Below, piece by piece: positions 10,276 through 13,780 of a stretch of DNA of 34,610 nt. The DNA comes from Vicinamibacteraceae bacterium (GTDB taxonomy: Bacteria; Planctomycetota; Phycisphaerae; Phycisphaerales; UBA5793): NCBI GenBank assembly GCA_011525805.1, contig WYBR01000054.1, positions 1 to 34,610 of the forward strand, in the 5' to 3' direction. The notes beneath the pieces are model-generated. The model was not told the origin of the DNA and searched no databases. It was given only the letters and a program-made list of their open reading frames with translations. The first letter of the stretch is position 1, and the number at the start of each line of letters is the position of its first letter. The position numbers and the translations under genes were made by a program.

Positions 10276-11520
10276 TCACGCGGGCCAGAGCCACAGAAGC
10301 AGCGCGCCGCCGGCAAGACTCACGCCGAACATCACCGCCATGCGCCCGGCGAGGGATCGACCGGCGACGAGGGCGATGACGGCGAGTTTGAAGAGGAGGT
10401 TGGCCATCGCCCCCACGAGGATAAGGCGCCAACCCGTCGCCTCTTCGAGCGCGCCGGTCTTCATGAGTTGGGCGCTCGAAAGGGTGATGGCGTCCATGTC
10501 GGTCAGGCCGGAGAGCGCGGCGACCACGTACATCGCCGTCGCGCCGAAGTTCTCGCGCACCGCCGATACGCCCACCAGCACGCCGGCGTAGAGCAGGCCG
10601 AAGACGACCGCGGCCGAGAGGTCTGACGGCGGCTGCTCGTCGGCCGAAGCCCGGAACGCGGAGCGGGCGCGGTAGAAGGCCGCGAGGCAGATCGCCGTCA
10701 TGAACACCATCATCGCCGCCAGCGGCGGCGCGACGGACGCGAGGATCGAGGGCGCCACCAGCGCGATCTCGAAGAGAACGCGCGCAAACACGATCGTCGA
10801 AGCGACCATCAGCACGATCGACGACCCCGCCGCCTCATCGCCGCCGGCTCGGGCGCGGCGGGCGTAACTGACGGTCGTCGCGGTGCTCGAGATCAGGCCG
10901 CCGAGCACGCCGGCGAGAATCACCCCCAGTCCCGCCCCCATCAGCAGGCGCGCAACATAGGCCGCGAGACTGATGCCCACGATCAGCACCACCATCAGCC
11001 AGATGCGGAACGGGTTGAGCACGTCGTACGGGCCGTAGTTCTCATCCGGCAGCAGCGGCAGAATCACCATGCCGATGAGAATGAGCCGGGCGATGGCGCG
11101 GAAGTCTCCCTCGCCGAGGCGATCGACGAAGGCGTGCAGCCGCCCCTTGGCATGCAGGAGCAGCGCGACGACTCCGGCGGTCACGACGGCGACGATTGCG
11201 TGGCCCACCATGACCGCGGCGCCGATGAGGAAGACGACCAGCGCGGCGACTTCGGTCGTGACCCCCGAGCCGTTCGCCGTGGCCGCGGACCTCGCCTGGT
11301 TGCCGATCCAAAGGACCCACGCCACCGCGAGCAGCCCCGCCGCCAGCAGCCACGCGAAGTTCAGGTCTCGGCTGAGCAGGCCGCACAGCGCCCCGGCGAG
11401 CGCGATGAGCGCGAAGGTGCGGATGCCCGCGACGGACTTCTCCGCCCACTCGCGCTGCATGCCGATGAGCAGGCCCAGGCCCACCGCCACCATGAGGTCG
11501 CGTACGAGTTCGGGTTCCAC
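10276..11520 (-). CDS. MgtC/SapB and DUF4010-domain membrane protein
   Basis: 414 residues and very hydrophobic, with roughly eleven or twelve membrane spans. The N-terminal part (about 10-140) is MgtC/SapB-like, recognised by GLGLLIGMQREWAEK and GIRTFALIALAGAL. The C-terminal part (about 180-414) is DUF4010-like, with GLISSTATTVSYARRAR and ALSGLTDMDAITLSSAQL. MgtC proteins are tied to magnesium or phosphate stress and membrane potential; transport by this fusion family is not established. The GTG start at 11520 is chosen because GGAG lies 13 bases upstream; an ATG nine codons later (11493) is the alternative. An 8-bp hairpin (11556-11576) sits in its leader. Confidence 0.85.
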   Translation of the reverse strand: MEPELVRDLMVAVGLGLLIGMQREWAEKSVAGIRTFALIALAGALCGLLSRDLNFAWLLAAGLLAVAWVLWIGNQARSAATANGSGVTTEVAALVVFLIGAAVMVGHAIVAVVTAGVVALLLHAKGRLHAFVDRLGEGDFRAIARLILIGMVILPLLPDENYGPYDVLNPFRIWLMVVLIVGISLAAYVARLLMGAGLGVILAGVLGGLISSTATTVSYARRARAGGDEAAGSSIVLMVASTIVFARVLFEIALVAPSILASVAPPLAAMMVFMTAICLAAFYRARSAFRASADEQPPSDLSAAVVFGLLYAGVLVGVSAVRENFGATAMYVVAALSGLTDMDAITLSSAQLMKTGALEEATGWRLILVGAMANLLFKLAVIALVAGRSLAGRMAVMFGVSLAGGALLLWLWPA

Positions 11521-11894
11521 GCCGGTGCGTCTCCGTCCAGCGGCCGCCGCGTCGGGGCGGGCCGTCGAGGCCCGCCGCGGAAACAATATCGGCACTCGCG
11601 CCGCCGGGGAATAGGCGCGGCGCCGCGGGCGCCCCGCGAGCCCGCCGCCGCGCGCCGAATCGCAGTCGCCGGCGCCTGATCGTCGGTGGGAGGGAATGCG
11701 CCTCGCGTCGATCGCTCCTCCCGGCGGCGATACCCTCGTGCATCGGCATCGAAGCCGCCCCCGTCCGGGCAGCCCTCGCGCCCGATGCCACCACCACCCG
11801 AAAGGACAGACCCCGGATAACAGGGATGGAGGTATTTCACGGGGCGGCGTCGGGCGGCCTTGACCGCGGTGGCCGGCGCGTGTATACTTGCACA
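11521..11894. other. Divergent intergenic region, MgtC-like / arsR
   Basis: 374 bases without a supportable gene. It holds the arsR promoter (11860-11888) and part of its operator at the right end. On the minus-strand leader side is a perfect 8-bp stem, GGCGGGCC (11556-11563) with GGCCCGCC (11569-11576), loop GTCGA. The middle is GC-rich and shows no known riboswitch or RNA pattern that I recognise. Confidence 0.6.
11860..11888 (+). promoter_or_regulatory. Sigma-70-type promoter of arsR, apparently leaderless
   Basis: TTGACC (11860-11865), a 17-base spacer, and TATACT (11883-11888) form a near-consensus promoter. The arsR ATG begins at 11895, six bases after the -10, exactly where transcription should start. 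No Shine-Dalgarno sequence fits between them. The transcript would therefore begin at or next to the ATG. Confidence 0.75.
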
Positions 11895-11906
11895 ATGACG
11901 CAAGTA
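11885..11906. promoter_or_regulatory. Candidate ArsR operator overlapping -10 and start codon
   Basis: A perfect inverted repeat, TACTTGC (11885-11891), 8-base spacer, GCAAGTA (11900-11906). It covers the last bases of the -10, the predicted transcription start and the first codons of arsR. Bound repressor would block polymerase directly. Dyad symmetry of this size fits a winged-helix ArsR dimer; a further GCAAG follows at 11908-11912. Confidence 0.65.
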
Positions 11907-12410
11907 CGCAAGAATATCCGCCGCCCCCCCGCCGCCGCGCCCGCCGTCCGAACGCCGGCCCGCGCCTGCTGCCCGCAACTCGCCGACCTCCTCGACGCAA
12001 GACTCTTCCGCGCCCTCGCCGACGGCAACCGCCTCGCCCTGCTCATGCGCCTCGCGGCGTGCGGACGCGCCTGCACCGTCAGCGAACTCAACGCCTGCTG
12101 CCCCGTCGACCTCTCCGTCGTCTCGCGGCACCTCGCCATCCTCCGCGACGCCGGAGCCCTCCAGGCAACCCGCCGCGGCAAGGAAGTACTCTACCAGGTG
12201 CGCTTCGAGCGGCTCGTGCCGCTGCTGCGCGGCATTGCGGCGGCGCTCGATTCGTGCCGATGTGCGGCCGAGTCGTGCGGCCCCTGCTGTGACACCCCCG
12301 GCGAGGCCGCCGCGGCGCCCGCCGCCCGCAAGGCCAGGCGCGCCGGAACCTCCCTGCGCTCCACACGCTCCAACCACTCCACCGAATCACGAAAGGAACG
12401 ATCGTCATGA
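11895..12410 (+). CDS. arsR: ArsR/SmtB-family metalloid-responsive repressor, cysteine-rich
   Basis: 171 residues, longer than typical ArsR. The winged helix-turn-helix spans about 32-115 (RLFRALADGNRLALLMRLA; SVVSRHLAILRDAGAL; RRGKEVLYQV). Eleven cysteines are present: 25-26, 56, 60, 68-69 in ELNACCPVD just before the recognition helix, and 121, 123, 128, 131-132. Such thiols bind arsenite or another soft metal and release DNA. The tail (about 135-171) is low-complexity and basic. The ATG at 11895 is chosen from the promoter geometry (leaderless) and the domain start. arsM overlaps its stop by four bases (ATGA), so the two are one operon. The metalloid is inferred from arsM. Confidence 0.92.
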   Translation: MTQVRKNIRRPPAAAPAVRTPARACCPQLADLLDARLFRALADGNRLALLMRLAACGRACTVSELNACCPVDLSVVSRHLAILRDAGALQATRRGKEVLYQVRFERLVPLLRGIAAALDSCRCAAESCGPCCDTPGEAAAAPAARKARRAGTSLRSTRSNHSTESRKERSS

Positions 12411-13282
12411 CCACGCGTGAAGCCGAGATTCGTCGCCACGTCTCCGAGTCCTACACCAAGGCCGTCACGACGCCGGGTTCGAGTTGCTGCGGCGGCATGC
12501 AGCCGGCGCAGAAGGGCGTGGCCGTCAAAAGCGCCGGCTATGGCCCGGAACTGGGCGAACTTCCCCCCGACGCCGTGGAAAACTCCTTCGGCTGCGGCAA
12601 CCCCCTCGCTTTCAGCGAGGTGCGCGAGGGCGACACCGTCGTCGATCTCGGCAGCGGCGCGGGCATCGACCTGCTCATCGCCGCGAAGCGAACCGGGCCG
12701 ACCGGCCGCGTCATCGGCGTCGACATGACCGACGCGATGATCGATCGCGCCCGGGCCAACATCGCCGCCGCCGGCCTCGCCGCGTTCGTCGAGGTTCGCC
12801 AAGGCTACATCGAGGCCCTGCCCCTCGAGAGCGGCACGGTGGACTGGGTCATCTCCAACTGCGTCATCAACCTCTCGCCCGAGAAGGAGAAGGTCTTCGC
12901 CGAGATCGCCCGCGTCCTTCGGCCCGGCGGTCGCATGCTCGTCTCCGACATCGTCGTTGAGAGCCTCCCCGAGGAACTCCGGCGCAACCAGGCCCTCTAC
13001 AACTCCTGCATCGCGGGCGCCATCAGCGAGGCGGACTACCTCGCCGGCCTTCGCCGCGCGGGATTGACCGACGTGCAGGTTCGCTCGCGCCACGTCTACG
13101 ACGAGATGCAACTCGAGTCGCTCATCGAAAGCGAGATCGTCGATCCGGCGGAGAAGAAGCGCGCCGGCGGCTGCTGCGGACCATCCTGCTGCGGCGGTTC
13201 AGGCGATGTCGACGTGGCCCGGCTCGCGCGGCGCAGCGCCGGCCAGGTCGCCAGCATCAGCGTTCACGCGCGAAAGGCGTAG
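12407..13282 (+). CDS. arsM: Arsenite S-adenosylmethionine methyltransferase ArsM
   Basis: 291 residues. The SAM-binding Rossmann core has [15 protein letters not shown] at 78-92 and the post-core [13 protein letters not shown] at 171-183. The As(III)-binding cysteines of the family can be placed: Cys63 in NSFGCGNP, Cys152 in [15 protein letters not shown] and Cys201 in [10 protein letters not shown]; an N-terminal CC at 27-28 may be the further thiol. It converts arsenite to methylated, partly volatile arsenic in the cytoplasm. A short tail has two CC pairs at 256-257 and 261-262 ([11 protein letters not shown]), a possible extra metal site. It overlaps arsR by four bases. No arsB, acr3 or arsC is nearby in this window. 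Confidence 0.95.
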
Positions 13283-13318
13283 CCCGGCGACGCAAGCCAG
13301 GTCAACCCGGAGCGGAGA

Positions 13319-13780
13319 TCACCCATCGGTCAGGTTGTCGAGGAGCCGCTCGAAGATGATGATGTTCTGGGCGGTGTCGGGATCCCAGCGGATGCCGACG
13401 ATGGCGTAGTTCTCTGAGATGCCGAAGTGGAGCATGGGGCGGTGGGTGTTGTTGCACTCGAAGCGCAGCGACGTGTAGCCTTCGTCGCGGGCCCAGATCT
13501 GCGCCTTGTGCATGAGGCGGCCGGCGATGCCCATGCGGCGAAAGTCGGCCGCGACGCCGACCATCCAGCCGAAGTGCACGGAGGGCTTGAGTTCGAAACC
13601 GATGTAGAAGCCCACCGCGTCGTTCTTCACCGAGGCGACGAGGCAGAGCACCTTGTAGCGCCCGCGAAACCGGCGCTCGAAGGACTCGGGCGGCCGCTCG
13701 GGACGGAACATCGTGTTGTGCAGGTGGGAGATAAGTTCGGTGTCCTTGGGATCGATGAGGTCGATGCGCAGGTCATTCAT
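13319..13780 (-). CDS. GNAT-family N-acetyltransferase
   Basis: 153 residues of single GNAT domain. Motif A is VGVAADFRRMGIAGRLMHKA, where the RRMGIAGR segment is the acetyl-CoA pyrophosphate loop. Motif B follows in YTSLRFECNNTHRPMLHF, with the Asn residues often seen near the acyl-CoA arm. It should transfer an acetyl group to an amine; the substrate is unknown. GGGGAGGG lies before the ATG at 13780. It converges with arsM, 36 bases apart, and lies 64 bases downstream of riboflavin synthase on the same strand, so co-transcription with it is possible. Confidence 0.85.
   Translation of the reverse strand: MNDLRIDLIDPKDTELISHLHNTMFRPERPPESFERRFRGRYKVLCLVASVKNDAVGFYIGFELKPSVHFGWMVGVAADFRRMGIAGRLMHKAQIWARDEGYTSLRFECNNTHRPMLHFGISENYAIVGIRWDPDTAQNIIIFERLLDNLTDG

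Follow-up and report, generated by a model that had tools for sequence, protein, structure and literature searches.

The arsR-arsM locus

In the window (the whole stretch of 34,610 nucleotides that was analysed), a gene for a 171-aa repressor of the ArsR/SmtB family, arsR (11895..12410, + strand), is followed by arsM (12407..13282, +), whose product scores above the cut-off of the arsenite methyltransferase model NF008823. The ATG of arsM overlaps the stop codon of arsR (ATGA), with a Shine-Dalgarno-like AAGGA ahead of it (within GAAAGGA). A divergent gene for an MgtC/DUF4010 membrane protein adjoins arsR on the other side (10276 to about 11600, - strand). ArsR matches NF033788 with 61.5 bits (cut-off 55) and PF12840 with 28.8 (cut-off 27), and PDB profiles match too, so that the winged-helix ArsR domain by which the family is recognised is present; the predicted structure is a winged helix with its recognition helix at residues 73-85 and a long C-terminal helix, in a fold resembling solved ArsR/SmtB structures.

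The genome to which the window belongs has MAGs of the Phycisphaerales as its nearest named relatives. Comparisons rest on ArsR relatives drawn from 392 genomes of the phylum, 301 of the order and the contigs of named genomes. Counts are of loci rather than independent events: the relatives share ancestry and are not independent samples, and a few loci may represent one organism that entered through two collections. Among the 85 relatives from which a motif was built, cysteines C56, C60, C68 and C69 are conserved in at least 95%, and C121, C128 and C132 in about 80-90%. The resulting pattern, C-x3-C-x7-CC with a C-terminal cysteine group (121-132), is unlike the R773 arrangement; counted back from SRHL, the cysteines miss the type 1 positions of R773 (C32, C34, C37). 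Known types of ArsR arsenite site are listed in PMC11868830.

A predicted promoter directly before the start codon

Upstream of arsR stand a -35 box TTGACC (11860..11865, +), a 17-base spacer, a -10 box TATACT (11883..11888, +), the six bases TGCACA and the ATG (11895-11897, +), all just as the initial annotation had placed them. This is the only sigma-70-like site on either strand of 10500-13500, with 10 of 12 matches where 0.1 such sites would be expected. The T/T/G/A/C columns of the -35 box are conserved at constant distance in the 85 relatives, as are the columns of the -10 box, and the six-base spacing between -10 box and ATG is kept in 73 of them. Because the -10 box ends only six bases before the ATG, the A of that ATG is the expected transcription start. 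TATACT begins at -12 from the ATG, which is the position used to recognise leaderless genes in PMC3160421, and no Shine-Dalgarno-like sequence was found before the ATG at 11895. The constant spacing of -35, -10 and ATG among relatives and the missing Shine-Dalgarno sequence fit the earlier claim that arsR probably begins without a leader.

The ATG at 11895 opens the frame in which the ArsR domain is read, and this frame continues upstream, without a stop, as far as an ATG at 11826. In 29 of the 85 relatives, no in-frame ATG, GTG or TTG lies between the preceding stop and the start codon in the dyad, which argues against a longer ArsR protein. Among 213 long ORFs tested, none has a full promoter at the arsR spacing before a candidate start. 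In 245 long ORFs, TAnnnT stands 5-8 bases before 20 among 1007 candidate starts, roughly three times as often as in the surroundings, so that probably only a minority of genes here lack a leader.

A putative operator centred on the start codon

A dyad, TACTTGC-N8-GCAAGTA (11885..11906), overlaps the -10 box, the predicted start point and the first codons, its arms (11885-11891 and 11900-11906) flanking ACAATGAC with the start codon sitting in the gap. The arms match perfectly over 7 bp, as had been claimed. Even when up to 3 mismatches are allowed, the window has this sequence only once, and the related dyad pattern has one site in the whole 4.54 Mb genome at the same tolerance. As evidence by itself the dyad was nevertheless rejected, being near chance by count: the window has five anonymous perfect 7-N8-7 dyads, and some perfect 7-bp dyad turns up in 4% of random stretches of 40 bases. 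Its weight comes from conservation among relatives, not from rarity.

That conservation redraws the extent of the site. While the 7-bp arms are present here, the core shared by relatives is narrower, TTGC(A)-N7(8)-GCAA (TTGC at 11888-11891 and GCAA at 11900-11903 in the window), and it is accompanied by a third GCAA (11908..11911, +) 8 bases after the second. This third copy occupies motif columns +20 to +23, which are strongly conserved in the 85 relatives (C in 82, the two A in 77 and 70), and it makes the single GCAA-N4-GCAA of the window; it is possibly an extra half-site, or else a coding constraint from Lys6. A fully symmetric operator would read ATGATGCAA, but at codon 2 (motif +10,+11; window 11898-11899) AT is rare, occurring in 3 of 85 relatives against AC in 57, GT in 16 and GC in 9, a pattern that would suit avoidance of a tandem ATG. 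In two paralogues or relatives, L035 (the second ArsR of G393) and L113, the dyad is altered to TACTGGCA...TGCCAGTA, both half-sites having changed symmetrically.

Conservation through the phylum

In a first alignment made on the half-sites alone, with the gap ignored, a start codon fell at motif +7 in 85 of 109 relatives (79 ATG and 6 GTG). The motif built from 85 of the 111 relatives with readable upstream DNA scores above the cut-off of 12 in 101 of them, those 85 matching by construction; the highest score in shuffled upstream regions was 9.3 and their 99th percentile -8.7. An in-frame ATG or GTG stands exactly at motif +7, inside the TTGCA-N7-GCAA dyad, in 94 of 111 relatives, with the promoter boxes likewise kept. 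Several families of the order share the layout, as do at least five families elsewhere in the phylum. No motif was seen by eye in the upstream stretches inspected from the other-phylum relatives L028-L031, and no ArsR relatives were found on plasmids. Within the stretch retrieved, arsM lies downstream of arsR in 80 of 109 relatives.

Because relatives across the phylum keep this layout, the merger of promoter, operator and translation start is very likely a real design. The initial annotation saw the three packed into under 50 bases at this gene; the arrangement is not restricted to it, being common to a whole planctomycete ArsR family.

The imprint of this design extends to the choice of synonymous codons. 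arsR opens ATG ACG CAA GTA, and among the relatives threonine at codon 2 is written ACG in 57 of 57 cases (178/468, or 38%, later in the same genes), CAA encodes glutamine at codon 3 in 72 of 73 (46/199, 23%, later) and GTA encodes valine at codon 4 in 40 of 40 (14/799, 2%, later). The P values for these contrasts take no account of shared ancestry. Since the synonym used at each of codons 2-4 is the one that the operator requires, the DNA itself is constrained, beyond the peptide. The operator also persists where the start codon has moved: L042, L047 and L093 have their ATG at +3 bases, within the right half-site, L034, L036 and L041 have it at +9 bases, and L007, L019, L020 and L024 retain the operator although their start codon has moved away from it. 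The codon constraint and the operator retained beside displaced start codons fit the earlier proposal that a putative operator over -10, +1 and start codon would let the repressor regulate itself by steric block.

Which protein binds, and competing readings

Regulators of the ArsR/SmtB family bind an inverted repeat at the promoter of their own operon; the putative operator here is a conserved dyad at the promoter, with a single candidate target in the genome. Among 201 genomes, 15 have the strict motif, once each and always at the arsR of a listed relative, and the one site in the window's genome lies on the arsR-arsM operon. A wider regulon was considered and dropped: TTGC-N8-GCAAG has 26 matches in the genome, no excess over the 30 of a reversed control pattern. 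A right half-site of the form G[TC]CA goes with alanine rather than serine at recognition-helix residue 77 (15/19 vs 3/82). This co-variation fits ArsR itself as the candidate binder, yet it is only suggestive because independent changes are few, and as proof of autoregulation it was rejected: on the tree there are six changes and one well-supported independent pair.

That a different regulator, such as another ArsR/SmtB paralogue, binds the operator seems very unlikely indeed; two weak further ArsR-like matches exist in the genome and conserved DNA could in principle serve another binder, but the motif is found solely at arsR and its variants track the recognition helix of this ArsR. We consider it very unlikely that arsR has a leader, with transcription from further upstream and translation from the ATG at 11826 or from 11895 behind the leader. 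The upstream frame, open and furnished with that ATG, would allow it; against it stand the lack of a second promoter-like site in 10500-13500, the absent Shine-Dalgarno sequence, the conserved spacing of -35 and -10 to the ATG, and the 29 of 85 relatives with no alternative start after the preceding stop.

The overlap with the start codon and the conservation of codons 2-6 might also be expected of an RNA or translation signal, whether hairpin or downstream box, rather than a protein operator. This is highly improbable, however: the left arm TTGC precedes the predicted start point and would be absent from the RNA, the motif stays in place while the start codon shifts by 1, 3, 9 or more bases, and it behaves as a dyad whose half-sites change in step, for example to TGGC...GCCA in L035 and L113. 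As for a chance dyad over an ordinary promoter, for which the five perfect 7-N8-7 dyads of the window might speak, it is next to incredible, being refuted by the nearly universal presence of the dyad at the same place among relatives.

A proposed mechanism and its implications

The reading that we favour with good confidence is that of a leaderless, self-repressed arsR-arsM operon, in which ArsR would sit on the -10 box, start point and first codons until released by arsenite. The anatomy, the conservation, the constraint at the level of DNA and the single target are features of the sequence, from which a start point, binding, steric block and a response to arsenite are predicted. When arsenite is absent, an ArsR dimer would occupy TTGC-N8-GCAA, from the last part of the -10 box across the start point to codons 1-4, and RNA polymerase would be unable to engage the covered promoter or to leave it. 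Arsenite (or methylarsenite) binding to the conserved cysteines would then lift ArsR off the DNA, a release to which the arsM partner and the cysteines point. The transcript would start at the A of the arsR AUG, which would be read by the leaderless route to give modest amounts of repressor, whereas translation of arsM, with its Shine-Dalgarno-like sequence and overlapping start, would take the ordinary route or be coupled to that of arsR.

Whether this extends to a fixed design of the planctomycete ArsR family, phylum-wide, is an evenly balanced question. The family would then combine a start-codon-centred operator, a third half-site and a cysteine site of non-R773 type, one stretch of DNA would serve as operator and initiation region while encoding the N-terminus, and the repressor would co-evolve with its operator and start codon. 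From the arrangement follow predictions of leaderless translation and of where the operator lies for an entire family of Planctomycetota regulators, and the relatives form a natural set of operators that differ in the offset of the start codon. It is also an example of an operator within a coding region freezing synonymous codons and, as predicted, an arsenic sensor compressed into about 50 bases.

Comparison with known systems

Leaderless genes that carry TANNNT some 12 bp ahead of the start occur widely (PMC3160421), and for Planctomycetes a genome survey has suggested initiation that is leaderless or depends on S1 (PMC5397173). A literature search, for which subscription papers were mostly out of reach, found no description of a start-codon-centred ArsR operator, nor any transcription-start study of leaderless genes in Planctomycetota. 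In E. coli R773 and in Bacillus subtilis the ars operon is governed by an ArsR-family autorepressor released by arsenite, the role predicted for ArsR here, but the operator is placed ahead of the -35 box (at -64 to -40 in E. coli), and transcription in B. subtilis begins 34 nt before arsR (reviewed in PMC12607644). In Arsenicibacter rosenii, the arsRM(C) cluster has arsR followed by arsM as in the window, and its ArsR responds to arsenite and methylarsenite; its cysteine pattern differs, and the accessible part of the report mentions no leaderless arrangement (PMC11868830). The arsR of Cupriavidus metallidurans CH34 is reported to be leaderless, as is predicted here, from mapped transcription starts (PMC7563307), although this is a betaproteobacterium, unlike the planctomycete considered here, and the likeness covers the leaderless arsR only.

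Leaderless repressor mRNAs are also made for lambda cI from PRM and for Tn1721 tetR, according to citations in PMC3017554; these belong to families unrelated to ArsR, the likeness is one of leaderlessness, and a start-codon-centred operator is claimed for neither. Another parallel is the acuR-acuI-dddL operon of Rhodobacter sphaeroides, in which the first gene is leaderless, codes for the repressor of the operon itself and is translated less than the later genes (PMC3017554). As at arsR, the -35 and -10 boxes stand directly before the ATG and an inverted-repeat operator overlaps the promoter; unlike ArsR, AcuR belongs to the TetR family and takes acrylate as its signal, and its operator is described as overlapping the promoter, whereas the putative operator of arsR is centred on the start codon and reaches into codons 2-4. 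Each element is known separately elsewhere, and what seems new is a putative start-codon-centred operator conserved through a phylum.
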